Shown: positions 45,210-54,067 of the stretch, in pieces
Position numbering within the stretch: position 1 is the first letter of the stretch
Layout: each line of letters starts with the position of its first letter
NCBI GenBank assembly: GCA_018433595.1
Contig: JAHDQY010000032.1
Coordinates: 1 to 64,000, forward strand
Length of the DNA stretch: 64,000 nt
Origin: Synergistales bacterium
GTDB lineage: Bacteria; Synergistota; Synergistia; Synergistales; Aminithiophilaceae
Direction: 5' to 3'
Notes under the pieces: generated by a model
Seen by the model: only the letters and a program-made list of their open reading frames with translations
Told to the model about the DNA's origin: nothing
Databases searched by the model: none
Translations under genes and position numbers: made by a program

Positions 45210-45239
45210 TTGACAGTTCCGGCGATCGTTGTTTATACT
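45210..45239 (+). promoter_or_regulatory. Strong sigma-70-type promoter of the methionine operon
   Basis: A perfect TTGACA (45210-45215), an 18-bp spacer and TATACT (45234-45239). Transcription would start near 45246, giving a leader of about 240 nt before metX that contains a short ORF and a terminator. Confidence 0.8.
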
Positions 45240-45309
45240 CACTCGAACCGGCGGCCCTTTAAAAGGGCGGCCTGGCGCGACAGAGATGACGAGAAAAGGA
45301 GGAGCCTCC

Positions 45310-45399
45310 ATGACGACCCGACAGGCCACCATGATGATGTGCGCCATGATGATGTGCGGCAACGGCGGATCTCCTCCAGGAAGGACCGGCGGCTGCTGA
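45310..45399 (+). CDS. Methionine-rich leader peptide of the met operon (attenuator peptide)
   Basis: The 29-codon ORF has an excellent ribosome site (AGGAGG at 45297-45302, seven bases before ATG). Its product contains TMMMCAMMMC: Met codons at positions 8-10 (45331-45339) and 13-15 (45346-45354), each run followed by Cys; a third Cys is the last residue. Seven Met in 29 codons immediately upstream of a methionine-synthesis operon, with a terminator starting 20 nt after the stop, is the design of a ribosome-stalling attenuator such as trpL or hisL. Charged tRNA-Met, and possibly tRNA-Cys, would be the signal. There is no biochemical evidence here; the call rests on composition and layout. 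Confidence 0.85.
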   Translation: MTTRQATMMMCAMMMCGNGGSPPGRTGGC

Positions 45400-45418
45400 C
45401 GCGTCGCTGTCTGAAATG

Positions 45419-45462
45419 GACCGGGATCCCCGCAGCTTTCGGCGGATCCCGGTCTTTTTATT
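45419..45462 (+). terminator. Attenuator terminator ahead of metX
   Basis: An 11-bp perfect stem (GACCGGGATCC at 45419-45429 with GGATCCCGGTC at 45444-45454), a 14-nt loop and TTTTTATTT: a strong intrinsic terminator 24 bp before the metX start. The 9-mer CGGCGGATC occurs in the loop/3' arm (45440-45448) and again inside the leader-peptide gene (45363-45371). The upstream copy can therefore pair with the 5' arm (about 7 bp) as an antiterminator. Confidence 0.85.
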
Positions 45463-45485
45463 TGCCTTGAGGAGGGGTGGTGGCC

Positions 45486-46682
45486 ATGGAGAGAGAAAAC
45501 CGGACGATCACGCATCGCGATGTCATGCCTTCCGATTCCGTTGGATGGACCGAGGCCGGGAAGGTGCGTCTTTTTTCCGAAGAGGAGCCCTTCGTCACGG
45601 AGCTCGGCGGGCGGCTTCCTTCCGTCGAGGTCGAATATGAGACCTACGGGGCCCTGTCGCCGGGAGGAGGGAACGCGATTCTCGTCGAGCACGCCCTTTC
45701 CGGAGATGCCCATGCCGCCGGAAGGGATCGGGCATGGCGGGAGCAGGGCCGGCCCTGGAGGGCGTCTCGGCCGGGGTGGTGGGATTCCATGATCGGTCCC
45801 GGGAAGGCGATCGACACGGACCGTTTCTTCGTGATCTGTCAGAACGTCCTCGGAAGCTGCTACGGCTCCACCGGCCCCGGCTCCATCGACGCCGGAACGG
45901 GACGGCCCTACGGCCGCTCCTTCCCCCTGGTGACCGTCGGCGACTGGGTGCGGCTCCAGGCCCGGGTCCTCGATGAACTCGGAGTGGAGCGGCTTCACGC
46001 CGTCGTCGGCGGGTCGCTCGGCGGCCAGCAGGCTCTGGAGTGGGCCCTCGCCTATCCCGGCCGTGTCGATCGGGTGGCGGTCCTCGCCGCCGCTCCCAGC
46101 CTTTCCGCCCAGGGGCTGGCCTTCAACGCCGTGGGCAGGCAGGCCATCATGAGCGATCCCGCCTTCCGGAACGGCGACTATTACGGTGGACCCCTTCCCG
46201 CCTCGGGGCTGGCGGCGGCCCGGATGCTGGGCCACATCACCTACCTTTCGGAGGAGGGGATGGAGCTCAAGTTCGGCCGGAGGCTGAAGCCGGAGAGGGA
46301 GGGCGGCTTCGGCGTCGAGTTCGAGGTGGAGAGCTACCTGGACCATCAGGGGCGGTCTTTCGTGGAGCGCTTCGACGCCAACAGCTACCTCTACATCACC
46401 CGGGCGATGGATTATTACGACGCCTCGCGGTGGGGGGGCGGCGACATGACCGAGGCCTGCCGCCGCATCGCCGCCGACGTCCTCGTCGTCTCCTTTGATA
46501 CGGACTGGCTCTATCCCCCCAAGGCATGCCGCCTCCTGGCCCGGGCCCTCACCCGCAGCGGAAGAAGGGTCACCTACGTCAACCTCTCCTCCCGCTACGG
46601 GCATGACGCCTTTCTCGTGGAGGCCGAGGAGCTCGGTCGCTTCCTCAAGCCCTTTCTGGAGCAGGGGAGGCGCGCGCGATGA
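45486..46682 (+). CDS. metX: Homoserine O-acetyltransferase
   Basis: The 398-residue alpha/beta hydrolase has NAILVEHALSGDAHAAG, WWDSMIGPGKAIDT, NVLGSCYGSTGP, nucleophile Ser in VVGGSLGGQQALEWA, catalytic Asp in VSFDTDWLYPP and His in YGHDAFLVE. It activates homoserine with acetyl-CoA (or succinyl-CoA in some family members; specificity not determined here). ATG 45486 follows GAGGAGGGG; GTG 45477 overlaps that site. It is the first enzyme gene after the attenuator. The stop overlaps metW as ATGA. Confidence 0.95.
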   Translation: MERENRTITHRDVMPSDSVGWTEAGKVRLFSEEEPFVTELGGRLPSVEVEYETYGALSPGGGNAILVEHALSGDAHAAGRDRAWREQGRPWRASRPGWWDSMIGPGKAIDTDRFFVICQNVLGSCYGSTGPGSIDAGTGRPYGRSFPLVTVGDWVRLQARVLDELGVERLHAVVGGSLGGQQALEWALAYPGRVDRVAVLAAAPSLSAQGLAFNAVGRQAIMSDPAFRNGDYYGGPLPASGLAAARMLGHITYLSEEGMELKFGRRLKPEREGGFGVEFEVESYLDHQGRSFVERFDANSYLYITRAMDYYDASRWGGGDMTEACRRIAADVLVVSFDTDWLYPPKACRLLARALTRSGRRVTYVNLSSRYGHDAFLVEAEELGRFLKPFLEQGRRAR

Positions 46683-47440
46683 AAGCGGACAGCCTTGCGG
46701 CCCCGGAGCGGCTCGTCGAGTGGATCTCCTCCTTTTTCGACGTTCCCCCCGTCGACGTCCGGCGCTTCGTGGCGTCCCGGGAGAGAGGGAATTCCGCCTC
46801 TTCCCGGGAGGGCCGGCGCTGGCAGGATGCCCTCATCGAAAGGGAGATTCCCCAGGGGGCCTCCGTTCTCGATCTCGGTTGCGGCCGGGGCGACCTGCTC
46901 TCCCGCCTCGCGGCCAGCCGGTCCGTCCGGGGACAGGGCGTCGAACTCGATCCCGGCGGCGTGGAGGCCTGCATCGCCCGGGGCGTTCCGGTGATTCAGT
47001 CCGACCTGGACGAGGGGCTCCGCGATTTTCCCGACGGGAGCTTCGATTTCGTCGTCCTCGAGGAGACGCTCCAGACGCTGCGGTCCCCCATGACGATCCT
47101 GGAGGAGATGCTCCGCGTGGGTGGAAGGGGGATCGTCTCCTTTCCCAACTTCGCCTTCTGGAAGGTCTGGACCGATTTCGCCCTTCGGGGGCGCATGCCC
47201 GTCACATCGAGCCTCCCCTATCGGTGGCACGACTCGCCGAACATCCACCTTTTCACCTTTCGCGATTTCGCCGACTGGGCCCGGGCCTCGGGGGTCCGCC
47301 TCGCGGCCGTCCACGTCCGTTCCGGAGAAGGCGTCCGCCGCTACGGAGAGGGGGACGACTTCAGGGGCGAAGAGATGCTCGTCGTCGTGGAAAAAGACCG
47401 GATTCCTTCCGGTACCGGAAGAGAAAGCGAGGAGCGATGA
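46679..47440 (+). CDS. metW: MetW methyltransferase-fold protein
   Basis: The 253-residue protein has a SAM-binding Rossmann fold (SVLDLGCGRGDLLSRLA) and MetW-specific blocks: PVIQSDLDEGLRDFPDGSFDFVVLEETLQTL, GRGIVSFPNFAFWKVW and SLPYRWHDSPNIHLFTFRDF. MetW is nearly always fused to or next to metX and is needed for full homoserine acetylation in several bacteria. An N-terminal extension of about 55 residues precedes the methyltransferase core. It overlaps metX and metY by 4 bp each. Confidence 0.92.
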   Translation: MKADSLAAPERLVEWISSFFDVPPVDVRRFVASRERGNSASSREGRRWQDALIEREIPQGASVLDLGCGRGDLLSRLAASRSVRGQGVELDPGGVEACIARGVPVIQSDLDEGLRDFPDGSFDFVVLEETLQTLRSPMTILEEMLRVGGRGIVSFPNFAFWKVWTDFALRGRMPVTSSLPYRWHDSPNIHLFTFRDFADWARASGVRLAAVHVRSGEGVRRYGEGDDFRGEEMLVVVEKDRIPSGTGRESEER

Positions 47441-47442
47441 AA

Positions 47443-48741
47443 ATGAGCGACAGCAGGCGTTACCGTTTCGAGACCCTGGCGATTCACGGCGGACAGGTCC
47501 CCGATCCCGGCACTCAGGCCAGGGGGGTCCCTGTCTCCAGAAGCAGCTCTTTCGTCTTCAAGAGCGTCCGTCATGGGGCCGACCTTTTCGCGCTCCGTGA
47601 CCGGGGCAACATCTATTCCCGTCTCGGGAATCCCACCGTGGAGGTCCTGGAGGAACGGATCTCCCTTCTCGAGGGGGGCGCCGCCTCGGTGGCGGTGGCC
47701 TCGGGAACCAGCGCCATCCACTACGCCGTCATCACCCTCGCCGGGGAGGGTGACGAGATCCTGGCGGCGAACAACCTCTACGGCGGGACCTACACCATGT
47801 TCGACTCCCTCCTGCCTCAGTTCGGCATCCGAACGCGCTTCGTCGACCCCGGAAGGCCCGAGGAGTTCCGAAAGGGCCTCACGGCCCGGACGAAGGCGGT
47901 CTACGTCGAGACCATCGGCAACCCCTCCCTGGACGTCATCGACGTGGAGGCCGTCGCCAGGATCGCCCACGAGGCGGAAATCCCCCTGATCGTGGACGGC
48001 ACCTTCACCACCCCCTACCTCCTCCGCACGATCGACCATGGGGCGGACATCGTGGTCAACTCGCTGACGAAATGGCTCGGCGGCCACGGGACGGCCATCG
48101 GGGGCATCGTGACCGACGCGGGGAACTTTCCCTGGAAGGGCAACGGCAAGTTCCCCCTGTTCAACGATCCCGATCCCAGTTACCATGGCCTTCGTTGGGC
48201 TCACGACCTGCCCGGGGACCTGGCCTCGGCCCCCTTCGCCTTCCGCCTGCGCATGGTGCCGCTCCGGAATCTCGGCGCCTGCCTCTCGCCCGACAACGCC
48301 TGGATCTTTCTTCAGGGCATCGAGACGCTCCCCTTCCGCATGGCCCGCCACGGGGAGAACGCGGCGGCCGTGGCCGCCTTCCTGAAGGGGCACCCCAAGG
48401 TGGCCTGGGTGCGTTTCCCCGGGCTGGCCGACGACCCCTCCCATCCCGTGGCGAGACGCTACCTCAAAAGGGGATTCGGCGGTATGGTGGTCTTCGGGGT
48501 CAGCGGCGGCGCTGAAGGGGGCGCCCGTTTCATCGAGTCCCTCCGGCTCTTCTCCCACCTGGCCAACGTGGGCGACGCCAAATCCCTGGCCCTTCACCCG
48601 GCGAGCACGACCCACAGCCAGCTTACGGAGGAGCAGCAGCGGGAAAGCGGGCTGGCGCCGGAACTGATCCGCCTTTCCGTCGGCATCGAGCACATCGACG
48701 ACATCCTTGAGGATATCGACCAGGCTCTTCGGAAGGTCTGA
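47443..48741 (+). CDS. metY: O-acetylhomoserine sulfhydrylase
   Basis: The 432-residue Cys/Met-metabolism PLP enzyme has the N-terminal FETLAIHGGQVPDPGTQARGVP, GNPTVEVLEERISLLEGG, VDGTFTTPYLLRTI-type block and the PLP lysine in VVNSLTKWLGGHGTAIGG. The insert around WKGNGKFPLFNDPDPSYHGL and LGACLSPDNAWIFLQGIETL is specific to MetY. It makes homocysteine from O-acetylhomoserine and sulfide. ATG 47443 has GGAG eight bases ahead; ATG 47437 (overlapping the metW stop as ATGA) is the alternative and adds two residues. Confidence 0.94.
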   Translation: MSDSRRYRFETLAIHGGQVPDPGTQARGVPVSRSSSFVFKSVRHGADLFALRDRGNIYSRLGNPTVEVLEERISLLEGGAASVAVASGTSAIHYAVITLAGEGDEILAANNLYGGTYTMFDSLLPQFGIRTRFVDPGRPEEFRKGLTARTKAVYVETIGNPSLDVIDVEAVARIAHEAEIPLIVDGTFTTPYLLRTIDHGADIVVNSLTKWLGGHGTAIGGIVTDAGNFPWKGNGKFPLFNDPDPSYHGLRWAHDLPGDLASAPFAFRLRMVPLRNLGACLSPDNAWIFLQGIETLPFRMARHGENAAAVAAFLKGHPKVAWVRFPGLADDPSHPVARRYLKRGFGGMVVFGVSGGAEGGARFIESLRLFSHLANVGDAKSLALHPASTTHSQLTEEQQRESGLAPELIRLSVGIEHIDDILEDIDQALRKV

Positions 48742-48874
48742 GGCGACGGGAAGGGCAAAAGCGGCGACCGGCAGGGGAAGGAAAAAGGAGCCCGGAGACG
48801 TTCCCGGGAAGAACCGTTCCGCCGGAGCCGCTCCAGAGGGACCGACGCTGTCTTGTTTGAGGAAGGAGATCGTC

Positions 48875-51289
48875 ATGGACCTGAAACGCTGGATCGAAGC
48901 GAGAGAAGGGATCACCGTTCTCGACGGAGCCATGGGGACGATGCTGGCCGAGAAGGGGTGGCGCCCCCCTCTCCTGCCCGAGGAGATGCTCCTGACGGCC
49001 CCCGATGCGGTCCTCTCCATTCACGAGGCCTACGTGGGAGCCGGAGCCGGGATCATCGAGACGAACACCTTCGGCGCCTCGACGCTCAAGCTGGCTCACC
49101 GGAATCTCCAGGCACGGGCCGAGGAGATCGGCTTTTCCGCCGCCTCGATCGCCCGGAGGGCCGCAGGAGACAGGGCCCTCGTCGCCGGCTCCGTCGGTCC
49201 CCTGGGCCGCCTCGTCGAGCCTCTCGGCGACGTCTCCTTCGATGAGGCCGTTGCCGCCTTCCGTCCCCAGATCCGGGGGCTCCTCGCGGGCGGGGCCGAT
49301 TTCATTCTCATCGAGACCATGCTCGACCTGAGGGAGGCCAAGGCCGCCGTCCTTGCCGTCAAGGAAGAGGATCGTCAGGCCGCCTTCGCTGTCAGCTTCA
49401 CCTTCGACCGCAACGGCAGCACCATGACGGGGACGCCTCCCGAAGTCGCCGCCGCCTGGGCCATGGCCGTCGGGGCCTCCGCCGTCGGCGCCAACTGCGG
49501 CGTCGGTCCCGGAGCCTATGCCGAGACCGTCGCCCGTCTCCGCCGTTCCTGCGACCTGCCGATCCTCGTCTACGCCAACGCCGGTCTTCCGGCCCAAGGG
49601 GTCACCCTCGACGCCGGAAGCTTCGCCGCCGCCTGCCGCCGCCTCGTCGAGGCCGGAGCGGCCGTCGTCGGCGGCTGCTGCGGCACCGGCCCCGGTCACA
49701 TCGCCGCCCTCCAGGCGGAGCTTGGAGGATTGCGCCCCCTCGCGGCGGAAGACGTGGAGGTCACGGCATTGGCGAGCCGGAGCCGCGTCGCCCTCTGCGG
49801 TCCCGACGAGCCCCTTCTCATCGTCGGCGAGCGGATCAACCCCTCCCGCAAGGGGCCCCTGAAGGAGGCCATGACCGAAGGGCGCTGGAGCGTCGTCCGC
49901 GACGAGGCCAGGCTCCAGACCGAAGCCGGCGCCTCCCTCCTCGACGTCAACGCCGGCATCGCCGGCCAGGACCGCAGCAAACTCATGGCCGCGGCCATCG
50001 ATGCCGCCCAGGGTGCCTCCGCTCTTCCCCTCTCCATCGACAGCGACGACGGGACCCTTCTCGAACTCGGCGCCCGATCCTACTGTGGCGTCCCCCTCCT
50101 CAACTCCGTCACCTGCGACGGGAAATCCCTCGAAAGAGGCGTGGAGCTGGCCCGGCGCGTCGGGGCCGGTCTCGTCGTCCTCACCCTCGACGGCAAGGGG
50201 ATTCCCGACAGCGCCGCAGGCCGCCTCGCCCTCGCTCGAAGGGCCGTCGCCGCCGCCGCCGCCGCCGGCCTGCCCCGGCGCTATCTCTTCATCGACCCCC
50301 TGACTCTGGCCGTCGGGGCCGACGGGAGAAACGCCGCCGTCACCCTCGAAACGCTCCGGGGGCTCCGGGGGCTGGGAACGCGCTCCATCATGGGCGTCAG
50401 CAACGTCTCCTTCGGCATGCCCGATCGGGCGCTGCTGAACCGGACCTTCCTCGTCATGGCCCGGGCCGAGGGACTTGAGGCCGTCATCGCCGATCCCCTC
50501 GACGGCGCCTTCATGGCCTCCGTCGCCGCCTCCGACGCTCTCACCGGACGCGATCGGGCCATGAGACGCTACATCGCGGCCGCCAAGGCCCGGGAGAAGG
50601 CGCCCGCTGCTCCCGTCTCCGTCTCACGCGCCGTCGATGCCCCTTCATCGGCCCCGGAGGGAGAGATCGGAAGAGCCGTCGTCTCAGGCGACAGGGAGGC
50701 CGCCCTCGCCGCGGCCGAGGCCTTTCTGGCCGGCGGCGCCGAGCCCATGGAACTCATCGGCGGGAAGGTCATCCCTGCCCTTGAGGAGGTGGGCCGCCGC
50801 TACGACTGCGGCGACTTCTTCCTTCCCGAGCTCCTTGAGGCCTCCGAGGCGGCCCAGGCCCTCTGTGACCTCGCCGAATCGCGTCTCCTGCAGCGGGGCG
50901 AGGCGCTCCGCTGCAGGGGAACGGTCGTCATGGCCACCGTGGAAGGGGATCTCCACGACCTGGGGAAGAAGGTCGTCGCCATGGTCCTCAAAAGCCGGGG
51001 CTACCGCATCGTCGATCTCGGTGTCGACGTTCCGGCCCAGGCCATCCTTGAGGCGGCAAGGCGGGAAGAGGCCGACGTCGTCGGTCTCTCGGCCCTCATG
51101 ACGACCACCGTCGAGGCCATGAAGACCGTCATCGCCCAGGGACGGCGCCTCGATCTCGGCTGCCGTTTCATCGTCGGCGGAGCCGCCGTCTCCTCCGCCT
51201 TCGCCCTCGATGCCGGAGCCGACGGCTACGCTCCCGACGCCGTCGAGGCCGCCCGACTCGTCGACCGCCTCATGGCGGAACGAACCTAG
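48875..51289 (+). CDS. metH: Cobalamin-dependent methionine synthase, short form lacking the reactivation domain
   Basis: The 804-residue protein has an N-terminal homocysteine-binding domain (zinc ligands Cys208 and Cys268-Cys269 in VGGCCGTGPGH), a methyl-folate pterin-binding domain (IVGERINPSRKGPLKEAM onward, about 320-570), a B12 cap (about 615-680) and the B12 domain with DLHDLGKK (axial His about 694). It ends after the B12 fold; the roughly 330-residue AdoMet reactivation domain of E. coli MetH is absent, as in many anaerobes. It methylates homocysteine using 5-methyl-tetrahydrofolate. A 133-bp gap separates it from metY. ATG 48875 follows GGAAGGAG; the frame upstream to 48707 overlaps metY and was rejected. 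Confidence 0.94.
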   Translation: MDLKRWIEAREGITVLDGAMGTMLAEKGWRPPLLPEEMLLTAPDAVLSIHEAYVGAGAGIIETNTFGASTLKLAHRNLQARAEEIGFSAASIARRAAGDRALVAGSVGPLGRLVEPLGDVSFDEAVAAFRPQIRGLLAGGADFILIETMLDLREAKAAVLAVKEEDRQAAFAVSFTFDRNGSTMTGTPPEVAAAWAMAVGASAVGANCGVGPGAYAETVARLRRSCDLPILVYANAGLPAQGVTLDAGSFAAACRRLVEAGAAVVGGCCGTGPGHIAALQAELGGLRPLAAEDVEVTALASRSRVALCGPDEPLLIVGERINPSRKGPLKEAMTEGRWSVVRDEARLQTEAGASLLDVNAGIAGQDRSKLMAAAIDAAQGASALPLSIDSDDGTLLELGARSYCGVPLLNSVTCDGKSLERGVELARRVGAGLVVLTLDGKGIPDSAAGRLALARRAVAAAAAAGLPRRYLFIDPLTLAVGADGRNAAVTLETLRGLRGLGTRSIMGVSNVSFGMPDRALLNRTFLVMARAEGLEAVIADPLDGAFMASVAASDALTGRDRAMRRYIAAAKAREKAPAAPVSVSRAVDAPSSAPEGEIGRAVVSGDREAALAAAEAFLAGGAEPMELIGGKVIPALEEVGRRYDCGDFFLPELLEASEAAQALCDLAESRLLQRGEALRCRGTVVMATVEGDLHDLGKKVVAMVLKSRGYRIVDLGVDVPAQAILEAARREEADVVGLSALMTTTVEAMKTVIAQGRRLDLGCRFIVGGAAVSSAFALDAGADGYAPDAVEAARLVDRLMAERT

Positions 51290-51300
51290 GAGGGTTGTCC

Positions 51301-52191
51301 ATGTTCATCGCCGATCTCTTCCGCAGAGAGGGTCCCGTCGTCTCCTTCGAGGTCTTCCCCCCCAAGGCCGGGGCCCCCGTCGAAAACGTCTACCGCACCA
51401 TCGAGGCGATCGCCGACCTGGCGCCGGGATTCGTGAGCGTCACCTACGGGGCCGGAGGCTCCAGCAGGGACCGCACCGTAGAAATCGCCTCGCGGATCTG
51501 CAGCACCTACGGCCTGGAGGCCCTGGCCCACCTCACCGGCATGAGCCACAGCACCGGGGAGATCGACGCCATCTGCCGCTCCCTGCTGGAGCGGGGCGTC
51601 GGGAATATCCTCGCCCTCAGGGGCGACCCTCCCCGGGAGGGAGGGGCCGTCGCCCGGAGCTATCCCTACGCCGCGGGCCTCATCGGCCACATCAAGACGG
51701 CCTTCCCCGGGAGCTTCTGCGTCGCCGCCGCCGCCTATCCCGAGGGGCACGTCGAGTGCGCCGATCCCGAAAGGGACCTGGATCACCTCAAGGAGAAGGT
51801 CGACGTCGGGGCCGACCTCCTCATCACGCAGCTTTTCTTCGACAACGAGATCTTCCATCGTTTCCGCGACCGCGTCGCCGCCCGGGGCATCGACGTCCCC
51901 CTCGTTGCCGGCATCTTCCCCGTCCTCAATGCCGGCCAGGTCCAGCGCATCGTCACCCTCTGCGGCGCCTCGCTGCCGCCCAAGTTCACCCGCATCATGG
52001 CCCGCTACGCCAATGACCCCGAGGCTCTGGCCGAGGCCGGCGTCGCCTACGCCACGGAGCAGATCGTCGATCTCCTCTCGTCCGACGTCGACGGCATCCA
52101 CCTCTACACCATGAACCGGCCCGAGACGACGCGGCGCATCATGGGCAACATCGGCCGGCTCCGCCGAGTCGCGCCGGCCTGCGGTCGCTGA
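51301..52191 (+). CDS. metF: 5,10-methylenetetrahydrofolate reductase
   Basis: The 296-residue TIM-barrel flavoenzyme begins VSFEVFPPKAGAPVENV and includes VSVTYGAGGSSRDRT, LAHLTGMSHS, NILALRGDPP and DLLITQLFFDNEIFHRF, all MetF motifs (catalytic Glu in SFEVFPP; FAD contacts in the middle blocks). It supplies methyl-THF to MetH. ATG 51301 is 11 bp after the metH stop, with AGGAGGG in between. Confidence 0.95.
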   Translation: MFIADLFRREGPVVSFEVFPPKAGAPVENVYRTIEAIADLAPGFVSVTYGAGGSSRDRTVEIASRICSTYGLEALAHLTGMSHSTGEIDAICRSLLERGVGNILALRGDPPREGGAVARSYPYAAGLIGHIKTAFPGSFCVAAAAYPEGHVECADPERDLDHLKEKVDVGADLLITQLFFDNEIFHRFRDRVAARGIDVPLVAGIFPVLNAGQVQRIVTLCGASLPPKFTRIMARYANDPEALAEAGVAYATEQIVDLLSSDVDGIHLYTMNRPETTRRIMGNIGRLRRVAPACGR

Positions 52192-52193
52192 CC

Positions 52194-53336
52194 ATGTCAG
52201 CGCTCCGCCGTCTTCTCGCGGCGCTTCTCTTTCCGGTCCTGGCCCTCGTCTCGGGCGAGGTGCTCCTGGAGCGCCACGGCCTGGCCGGGAGGCTCTTGCC
52301 CGTCGAGGCGGCCCGCCTGGCCCGACTGGCCGATTACGACTACGTCGCCGACATCGAGGCGCTGCGCGGGGAGGGACTCCTCGCCGAGGCCCTGGAGCTG
52401 GCCCGTTACGTCGCGGCCCACCCCGATCTCCCCGGCCACGGACGGGCCCTCGCTCTCGAAGCCGAGCTGGACGGTGAACTTCACTCCCTCTGGGGTTGGT
52501 CGAAGCGGGCCGCCTGGGGTTTCCTCTCCGGCGAAGCGGAGACGATGGAGGCGGCAGGCGGCGCCATCCTCTCGGACATGCTTCTTTACGGTGACCTGCG
52601 AGACCTGGCGAAACAGGCCTACTGCGGGGCGACGGGCAAGGAGACCGATCCGCTGCTGATCGCTCTCTCCGGCGTGGGCCTGCTCACCGAGGTCGTCGAC
52701 GGCATCGACTGGGCCCCGGCGGTGCTCAAGGTTTTCCGGAAGGCCGGGGCGATGACGAAGCGGTTCGGAGACTGGCTTCTGACCCTGTCGAAGAGCTCCG
52801 TCGCGGCCAGGCGCCTCGACCCGATGCTGAAGGGCCTCTTTGAAAACATCCGGGTGATGAGGGATTCCGTCGGTCTCCCCCGGACGATGCGTCTCTTCCG
52901 CCACGTCGACGACGGCGGTGATGCGGCCCTGCTGGCCCGGTCGGTCTCGCGCCACGGCGATGCCGCCTACCTGGCCGTCAAAAACGGAGGGGAGGAGGGC
53001 GTCGCACTGCTCCGGCGCCTCGACGGGGCCCCGGGGGCGGAGAAGCTGCTTGCCCTGGCGGCCCGCAAAGGGCGGGGAGGCGTCACGTTCCTTCTCCGTC
53101 CTCCCTCACGGCTCTGGGTCACCCTGAGCCGCGGCGCCAGGATTTTTCACCTCGACCGGATCGAAACCTTTTTGAAGGACTGGGTTCTCCGCGACGGCAG
53201 GGTCCTCTGGGGGGTCTGGGGCGCCTTCTTTGCCGGTCTGGGAGGGACGGCCCTCTCGGGAAGGCGCGCCCTGAAGGCCGCCGGGCGCCGCCTCGCCGCC
53301 TCCAAGGGGTCGGGCGGCGAGATGGCGGGAGGCTGA
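52194..53336 (+). CDS. Unknown protein in the methionine operon
   Basis: The 380-residue protein has a hydrophobic N-terminus (LRRLLAALLFPVLALVSGEVLL) that may be a signal or anchor, and a second hydrophobic stretch near the end (LWGVWGAFFAGLGGTALSG). The middle is Arg/Leu-rich and helical, with a repeated 'RRLD' element (ARRLDPMLKGLF; LLRRLDGAPG). It resembles no family I know. It starts 2 bp after metF, so it is translationally coupled and probably expressed with the methionine genes. Orthologues in the same place in related genomes would be the best clue to function. Confidence 0.75.
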   Translation: MSALRRLLAALLFPVLALVSGEVLLERHGLAGRLLPVEAARLARLADYDYVADIEALRGEGLLAEALELARYVAAHPDLPGHGRALALEAELDGELHSLWGWSKRAAWGFLSGEAETMEAAGGAILSDMLLYGDLRDLAKQAYCGATGKETDPLLIALSGVGLLTEVVDGIDWAPAVLKVFRKAGAMTKRFGDWLLTLSKSSVAARRLDPMLKGLFENIRVMRDSVGLPRTMRLFRHVDDGGDAALLARSVSRHGDAAYLAVKNGGEEGVALLRRLDGAPGAEKLLALAARKGRGGVTFLLRPPSRLWVTLSRGARIFHLDRIETFLKDWVLRDGRVLWGVWGAFFAGLGGTALSGRRALKAAGRRLAASKGSGGEMAGG

Positions 53337-53341
53337 CGGCC

Positions 53342-54067
53342 GTGGCCTCCGTCGACGTCGTCTTTTCCCCGGCTGAACCGCTCCCCCGGGCCGACTGCTG
53401 GCTCGTCGTCGATCTTCTGCGGGCTTCGACGACGATCGTCGCCTTTTTCGAGCGCGGCGGCCGCTGCCTCCTGCCGGCGGCGGCCGTCGACGAGGCCCGG
53501 GATCTGAAGAGGAGGCTTCCCGGCCGGTGGCTTCTCATGGGAGAGCGTAACGCCCTGCCTCCTGAGGGATTCGACCTCGGCAATTCGCCGCTGGAGCTGG
53601 CCTCCGTCGACATGACCGCCTTCGACGGCGCCGTCATGACCACCACCAACGGCACGAGGGCCCTGCTGGCGGCGGCGGAGAGGGGGGGCGAAATCCGCGT
53701 CGCCTGCGCCCGGAACGCCAGGGCTGCGGCGGTCCGGGCTGCGGCTTTCCGCTCCGTCGCCGTCTTCTGCGCCGGCCTTGAGGGGCGCCCGGCGCTGGAC
53801 GATACGGCCTGCGCCGGCCTGCTCGTCGACCGCCTCCTCGAAAGGGGTCCCCGGGAGCTCGGTGACGGAGCCCAAATGGCCCTGTCTCTCTTTCGCGACT
53901 GCCGGTGCAGCCTGGCCGATCTCGTCTCCATGTCCCGGCACGGCCGCCGCCTCAAGACCCTGGGCCTTGAGGCGGACCTGCTCTACTGCTGCGAAACGGA
54001 CCGGAGCGACTGGGGCGCCCGCCTGGAAAGGTGCGGGGGGCTGATGAGACTCCTGCCGGAGCGCTAG
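53342..54067 (+). CDS. ComB-family 2-phosphosulfolactate phosphatase-like protein
   Basis: The 241-residue protein matches the ComB family (PF04029): VVDLLRASTTIVAFFE, LLMGERNALPPEGFDLGNSP, AVMTTTNGTRALL and CAGLEGRPALDDTACAGLLV are the conserved blocks. ComB hydrolyses 2-phosphosulfolactate in coenzyme M synthesis, but family members occur in many bacteria without that pathway, where the substrate is unknown. GTG 53342 is 5 bp after the preceding gene, making it the seventh enzyme-sized gene of the met operon; a sulfur-related role is inference. It ends 4 bp into the convergent CsaA-like gene. Confidence 0.85.
   Translation: MASVDVVFSPAEPLPRADCWLVVDLLRASTTIVAFFERGGRCLLPAAAVDEARDLKRRLPGRWLLMGERNALPPEGFDLGNSPLELASVDMTAFDGAVMTTTNGTRALLAAAERGGEIRVACARNARAAAVRAAAFRSVAVFCAGLEGRPALDDTACAGLLVDRLLERGPRELGDGAQMALSLFRDCRCSLADLVSMSRHGRRLKTLGLEADLLYCCETDRSDWGARLERCGGLMRLLPER

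Follow-up and report, generated by a model that had tools for sequence, protein, structure and literature searches.

How does a bacterium of the Synergistales control a methionine operon that lies behind a short open reading frame (ORF) in which methionine codons stand in runs? We analysed a window of 64,000 nucleotides in which such a leader precedes the genes metX-metW-metY-metH-metF, in that order and all on the same strand (coordinates below are those of the window, and all features are on its plus strand). Methionine control is generally ascribed to SAM riboswitches, T-boxes or repressors. A preliminary description, made from the sequence alone, had read the leader as a Met-codon, ribosome-mediated attenuator, and this reading held when judged by the leaders of relatives, the coevolution of a pairing, RNA folding and the match between codon runs and downstream genes. 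We conclude that the metX leader is very likely a ribosome-mediated transcription attenuator that senses the charging of elongator methionyl-tRNA, a conclusion that rests on computational tests throughout and has no expression data behind it.

Anatomy of the metX leader

The leader opens with a sigma-70-type promoter (45210-45239) in which TTGACA (45210-45215) and TATACT (45234-45239) are separated by 18 nt and match the consensus at 11 of 12 positions; it is the sole sigma-70-like site in 700 nt (shuffles: 0.1 ± 0.4). Downstream, a Shine-Dalgarno (SD) sequence, AAAAGGAGGAG (45294-45304), precedes a leader peptide ORF of 29 codons (45310-45399, ATG at 45310) whose translation, MTTRQATMMMCAMMMCGNGGSPPGRTGGC followed by a stop, belongs to a family conserved in relatives. 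Codons 8-10 and 13-15 of this ORF are all Met codons, and each triplet is followed by a Cys codon, so that regulatory run 1 (45331-45342) and regulatory run 2 (45346-45357) both read ATG ATG ATG TGC. The two runs form a perfect 15-nt tandem duplication, CCATGATGATGTGCG, and the sequence ATGATGATGTGY is observed twice in the window against 0.00 expected in shuffles.

The remaining elements are the strands of two alternative structures. Strand 2, CGGCGGAUCUCCUCCA (45363-45378), lies within the tail codons of the ORF and was identified by duplex tests and folding as the 5′ strand of an antiterminator, and strand 3 (45417-45432), identified in the same way, is both its alternative partner and the 5′ arm of the terminator. 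Strand 4 (45440-45459) comprises the terminator 3′ arm and U tract. By folding, the antiterminator encloses a further hairpin (45383-45412) whose apical loop holds the UGA stop codon. The leader SD is a candidate for strand 1, being able to pair with CUCCUCC in the tail. The terminator hairpin itself (45418-45455) has a folding energy of about −28 kcal/mol and runs into the U tract UUUUUAUUU. A simple consensus scanner for terminators did not pick it up, probably because its stem is bulged and its loop long. The 9-mer CGGCGGATC occurs at 45363-45371 and again at 45440-45448; by itself it is mildly enriched in the window (7 observed, 3.1 expected). The preliminary description had listed the promoter, the 29-codon ORF, its ribosome site, the Met runs with their TGC codons, the terminator and the duplicated 9-mer, and all of these held at the positions it gave. 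Separately, a stable hairpin with 11-nt arms (GGCGGCCCUUUAAAAGGGCGGCC, 45248-45275, −17.6 kcal/mol) lies at or close to the predicted start of the metX transcript, and we assign it no function.

The leader meets four criteria for a ribosome-mediated attenuator that can be judged from sequence: a translatable ORF with an SD lies between promoter and operon, an intrinsic terminator lies between that ORF and metX, the codon runs specify an amino acid that the downstream genes produce or import, and a mutually exclusive antiterminator uses the terminator 5′ arm. A competing explanation is that a metabolite-binding riboswitch, for SAM or something else, controls metX and that the ORF is incidental. 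In its favour, SAM-I riboswitches control many Synergistales met operons, in some cases directly upstream of a Met attenuator. Against it, a search of the window leader against Rfam returned no family match even at E ≤ 1 (Trp, His, Leu, Thr and Phe leaders included), and that search found no match to the SAM-I aptamer (RF00162) or to T-box (RF00230) features. SAM-I riboswitches were present in 113 of 183 Synergistales genomes and in none of the four genomes of the window's genus, this genome and three others. Moreover, the parts that are conserved are the codons, the tail and the terminator, not a fixed aptamer. We consider this explanation as good as ruled out.

Methionine leaders within the genome and across the Synergistales

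Across the whole 2.53-Mb genome ATGATGATGTGY occurs 5 times, always within one of three met leader ORFs, those of metX, metQ (peptide MTRRIDMMMCSMMMCGVSGSPPGRIGDC) and metN (peptide MRQALIGITGNAMMMCMMMRARGSSPGMAGA), each of which is accompanied by a promoter-like sequence, an SD and a terminator-like hairpin. We built a covariance model, R1, from an alignment of twelve leaders. On these twelve leaders RNAalifold, run without guidance, recovered the terminator, with compensatory changes, and predicted that GGAGG of the SD pairs with CCUCC of the tail. R1 matched 134 of 183 Synergistales genomes, covering 54 of 59 genera, at up to 13 places per genome and with bit scores of 54-138 for the listed matches; against 25 outgroup genomes (about 98 Mb, from other phyla with a related metX) the best match scored no more than 31 bits, and we did not trust matches at or below about that score.

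The alignment of metX leaders from relatives that the preliminary description had proposed as a check was run, and the nearest metX relatives, in genomes G077 (77% identity) and G182 (73%), keep the Met runs, the tail and the terminator. The three genomes of the same genus (G001-G003) lack metX, yet they carry Met-run leaders on metQ. When we examined the regions upstream of metX in 80 metX relatives from many phyla, a Met-run leader was found solely in a Synergistaceae genome (L032); one in 80 means that the leader is not a general feature of metX. The comparative evidence comes entirely from related genomes of a single phylum.

The codon run follows the downstream gene

We read about 95 distinct leaders together with their downstream genes, taking the nearest long ORF as the gene, with the result that some assignments are approximate; the set also contains miscalled leader ORFs (the second hits of L114 and L167, and L165 and L226). 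Nearly all leaders follow one plan, consisting of an SD, a brief variable opening, a stretch of codons of a single kind, a tail, a stop and a terminator, and the tail has the consensus G-(S/D/G)-(S/P)-P-(G/E/D)-x-x-G across leaders for different amino acids. Leaders with Met runs stand ahead of metQ, metN, metY and metX. Among distinct Met leaders, 51 of 58 precede metN, metQ, metX or metY, compared with 0 of 33 usable non-Met leaders (Fisher P = 3 × 10−18, relatedness not removed). The other seven comprise four ahead of a gene family that we call GTPEEIN, with the rest accounted for by a contig end, a frame problem or an insertion element.

Other codon runs accompany other pathways. Runs of the form TMTMT or TTTTTMTT stand ahead of aspartokinase and homoserine dehydrogenase genes, runs of Leu, Val and Ile codons ahead of ilvN, ilvC, leuA, leuC, an ilvA-like gene and NSS transporters, runs of Phe and Tyr codons ahead of, among others, a phenylacetate-CoA ligase gene, and Ala runs ahead of an aminotransferase gene and of a gene without known function (GTPEEIN family). 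The RNA frame remains constant and the codon run alone changes, which amounts to a natural swap of the sensing element. We regard this swap as the strongest support for reading the metX leader as a Met attenuator, and in this light the leader is the Met version of a modular, phylum-wide cassette, with codon runs swapped to suit the gene that is controlled.

Individual leaders in this set deserve mention. The leaders that combine Thr and Met codons (AMTMTSGDPPG, TTTTTMTTC) were seen at L200, L201, L205 and L228 before aspartokinase and at L142, L146 and L217 before homoserine dehydrogenase, and they appear to sense both end products of the homoserine branch jointly. At L157 a leader of Phe/Tyr codons, NCFFEYYYASEG, precedes the phenylacetate-CoA ligase gene. 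Leaders of Ala codons with a terminator (FLVAAAAMATGGPPGGAGAP, FLLAAAAMCGGPPGGAGAP) were seen at L152 (G000:C3:23600-23755), followed after about 240 nt by an aminotransferase gene, and at L148 (G001:C1:2943230-2943382), followed by a GTPEEIN-family gene; that these are alanine attenuators is a possibility we raise only tentatively. The GTPEEIN proteins are about 420-430 aa long, carry the motifs YGTPEEIN and GGPETITGYFGG, and are encoded downstream of L120, L122, L125, L134, L148 and L224. Neither NCBIfam nor PDB gave a match for the L148 member, and Pfam gave none for the L012/L134 member. A family found under Met or Ala leaders, it is likely tied to methionine metabolism.

The leader tail and the terminator arm coevolve

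In the window, the antiterminator pairs 45363-45378 with 45417-45432 over about 14 bp in two main blocks. The preliminary description had proposed this pairing with the terminator 5′ arm, which held, and had put its length at about 7 bp, which is corrected here. Across 92 leaders, duplexes between a leader's tail and its own terminator arm were stronger than duplexes with swapped arms (−15.8 versus −13.9 kcal/mol; 0 of 5000 permutations), and the difference persisted with one leader taken from each of 23 sequence-similarity clusters (z = −4.2, P ≤ 0.0005). Control swaps that used the ORF start in place of the tail, or a reversed arm, had no effect. These computations show that the complementarity between the tail and the terminator 5′ arm coevolves. 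The terminator stem also covaries strongly across 65 non-redundant leaders. Column-wise covariation in the model-fitted alignment was tried for the antiterminator and gave a noisy signal, for which codon indels in the tail are the probable reason, and the duplex swap test was used in its place.

The preliminary description had further suggested folding the leader under the constraint of a stalled ribosome; this was done and the predicted switch was obtained. We folded the nascent RNA of 92 leaders without the terminator 3′ arm, placing a ribosome either at the first regulatory codon or at the stop codon. The probability that the tail sequesters the terminator 5′ arm was 0.74 with the stalled ribosome, 0.16 with the ribosome at the stop and 0.55 without a ribosome, and 72 of 92 leaders exceeded 0.5 when stalled while remaining below 0.3 at the stop. 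Weighted by cluster, the stalled value was 0.65, compared with 0.47 when terminator arms were swapped in from other clusters. In the untranslated RNA of the window leader, the antiterminator is also favoured (0.71). At equilibrium, the full RNA beyond a stalled ribosome prefers the terminator with local hairpins (−46.9 kcal/mol) to the antiterminator fold (−34.4 kcal/mol, computed on RNA without the 3′ arm). The terminator is thus the thermodynamic optimum, and the switch must act kinetically, as is usual for attenuators.

The tail may serve a second pairing. Duplexes between SD and tail had an energy of −11.3 kcal/mol, compared with −7.8 kcal/mol for shuffled tails, and were better than the shuffled ones in 83 of 92 leaders, from which the leader's own SD would be strand 1 of a classical four-strand attenuator. 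We rejected CUCC as a universal anti-SD element of the tail, since the exact sequence is missing in 26 of 95 leaders; SD pairing is therefore common but not universal, and the evidence for pairing with the terminator arm as the constraint on the tail is stronger. For the window leader, the assignment of the SD as strand 1 is an inference that remains uncertain, as SD pairing is not the best fold of its untranslated RNA.

The conserved tail invites a different explanation, in which the nascent peptide (MMMC...SPPG) itself arrests the ribosome, perhaps by sensing SAM or methionine or in an EF-P-dependent manner at Pro-Pro-Gly. In its favour, the C-terminal G-S-P-P-G-x-x-G is conserved across leaders for different amino acids. 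PPG is, moreover, a known slow translation motif. Against it, the tail residues vary (SPPG, SSPG, SSPE, SSPD, SSCD, SSYD, GPPG, DPPG, PSEG), yet the tail stays complementary to the terminator arm, and gene function is tracked by the codon run and not by the tail. RNA pairing consequently explains the tail better than an arrest peptide does; we hold nascent-peptide arrest to be very improbable, although it cannot be excluded without mutants.

A related possibility is that the TGC codons after the Met runs sense cysteine or sulfur supply besides methionine, as the preliminary description had suggested. Cys does follow MMM in 58 of 65 runs. However, Arg takes its place in 6 of 65. Leaders for Ile/Leu, Phe and Thr likewise carry a Cys codon immediately ahead of their tail, where UGCGG forms part of strand 2 or borders it, so that RNA pairing explains part of the Cys codons. 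The suggestion was not supported, and we think cysteine sensing improbable.

Finally, the leader could be a constitutive terminator next to an unused small ORF, present by chance or as a relic. The absence of expression data leaves nothing of that kind to set against this idea, but conservation, association with genes and coevolution all oppose it, and we treat it as practically excluded.

Proposed mechanism

Under the attenuation reading, a ribosome would translate the leader peptide close behind the RNA polymerase, which would meanwhile be transcribing the region just downstream. When Met-tRNA is scarce, the ribosome would stall on the ATG runs (45331-45354), leaving strand 2 (45363-45378) free to pair with strand 3 (45417-45432); this pairing would block the terminator, and metX-metW-metY-metH-metF would be transcribed. 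When Met-tRNA is plentiful, the ribosome would reach the stop codon, cover strand 2 and open the stop-codon hairpin, whereupon strands 3 and 4 would form the terminator and transcription would end before metX. Without a ribosome, strand 2 may pair with the leader SD (strand 1), a pairing that would promote termination and prevent new rounds of initiation. The anatomy of the leader, its conservation, its association with genes and the coevolving alternative pairings are shown by sequence; stalling, coupling, antitermination in the cell, the response to tRNA charging and the role of SD pairing are inferred.

Met attenuators and SAM-I riboswitches in series

Ten loci, spread over nine genomes, have a SAM-I aptamer directly upstream of a Met attenuator. 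Such serial arrangements were seen before metX, metY or metQ at L032 (L032:3504-3910), L119, L172, L136, L188, L009, L010, L026 and L028, and a SAM-I element with a terminator of its own was seen in tandem at L032, L026 and L172. At L032 a perfect TTGACA-18-TATAAT promoter is followed by the SAM-I aptamer, a terminator, the Met leader, a second terminator and metX. From the order of the two terminators we infer a two-input gate, which would open only when SAM and charged Met-tRNA are both low. Of 54 metX genes, at least 17 had SAM-I alone, at least 15 a Met attenuator alone and at least 2 both, leaving at most 20 with neither, and the distribution of the two elements over metX and metY operons is as expected of interchangeable met sensors. 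T-boxes are also present in Synergistota.

Taken together as a joint claim, a bolder reading is likely: Synergistota reuse one reprogrammable attenuator cassette across amino-acid genes, made up of the SD as strand 1, a codon slot, a fixed tail, a stop-codon hairpin and a terminator, with Met, Thr+Met, Ile/Leu/Val, Phe/Tyr and Ala versions obtained by swapping the codon run, and some met operons place it in series behind SAM-I as a two-input gate.

Relation to known regulatory systems

Ribosome-mediated attenuation itself is old and well known. The classical attenuators (trp, his, leu, ilv, thr and phe, in Enterobacteria and others) likewise combine a leader ORF rich in codons for the product, a 2:3 antiterminator and a 3:4 terminator, with one ORF per operon. 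The metX leader differs in sensing methionine, and the leaders of this phylum differ in sharing a tail and a terminator style while the codon run is exchanged, in placing strand 2 within the last ORF codons, before the stop, and in apparently using the leader's own SD as strand 1.

The preliminary description had called a Met-codon attenuator unusual; a weak proposal of a Met leader already exists for Streptomyces lividans, where metL was placed upstream of metNIQ, together with an alaL (PMC8079986). Like some of the leaders described here, metL stands before a methionine transporter operon; unlike the window leader, metL (MSTTSDRTPATEATTTPGARCMCRRMCAF) is leaderless, contains two internal Met codons, each isolated, and lacks a typical terminator (PMC8079986), and the proposal rests on RNA-seq of a single genome (PMC8079986). 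A study of histidine regulation that included Synergistetes reported new leader attenuators solely in Firmicutes groups (PMC9413887). The open-access literature that we searched held no description of Met leader peptides or attenuation in Synergistetes or Synergistota, most subscription papers being outside this coverage. Judged by that literature, three things are new: the complete and conserved Met-codon attenuator, the modular cassette shared across the phylum, and its placement in series with SAM-I.

Other systems share parts of this logic. SAM-I (S-box, RF00162) also controls met genes by terminator and antiterminator; it differs in that its aptamer senses SAM. A SAM-I riboswitch of Xanthomonas campestris that binds uncharged initiator tRNA likewise joins SAM and tRNA-Met signals at a met operon and involves SD/anti-SD pairing (PMC7270179), but it is one riboswitch that acts mainly on translation and binds free tRNA-fMet (PMC7270179), whereas the tandem of Synergistota consists of two transcription attenuators, the second read by a ribosome (elongator tRNA). 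The T-box (RF00230) also senses tRNA charging and controls a terminator, but it binds the tRNA directly and needs no translated ORF. The cysteine leader peptides of actinobacteria share a codon run for a sulfur amino acid, but their Cys run lies near the stop and they have no conserved terminator (PMC1262725).

A clear and conserved attenuator built on Met codons supplies a missing entry among the amino acids that translating ribosomes sense. Its family provides natural domain swaps, in which the RNA frame is the same and the codon slot and operon differ, making the rules of attenuation testable by comparison, and the cassette is a source of prefabricated parts from which sensors for different amino acids could be built. 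The serial arrangement and interchange of SAM-I and Met attenuators bear on why a cell would sense the end product, the cofactor or both.

The downstream met operon

The first regulated gene, metX (45477-46682; start GTG at 45477 or ATG at 45486), encodes a homoserine O-acyltransferase (NF001209, 2 × 10−145) and is followed by metW (46679-47440; TIGR02081, 1 × 10−62), by metY (47443-48741), encoding O-acetylhomoserine sulfhydrylase (TIGR01326, frame residues 324-745), by metH (48707-51289; model match) and by metF (51295-52191), encoding methylenetetrahydrofolate reductase (TIGR00676, 7 × 10−89). The start of metY is approximate, the gene sitting in a longer open frame (46495-48741). The MetH protein has the homocysteine, pterin and B12 domains and was matched by the metH model to position 861 of 1182, with no match to the C-terminal SAM-dependent reactivation domain.

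The nearest named relative of the window metX is that of Synergistaceae bacterium LM3-B13.2. None of the three same-genus genomes holds a match to the gene, and the closest relatives of this metX (77% and 73% identity) belong to other families, which leaves open the possibility that the met operon was transferred horizontally together with its leader. Directly past the operon lies an ORF of 380 aa (52194-53336) with zero NCBIfam or Pfam matches, and the next gene after it (53342-54067) is 2-phosphosulfolactate-phosphatase-like.
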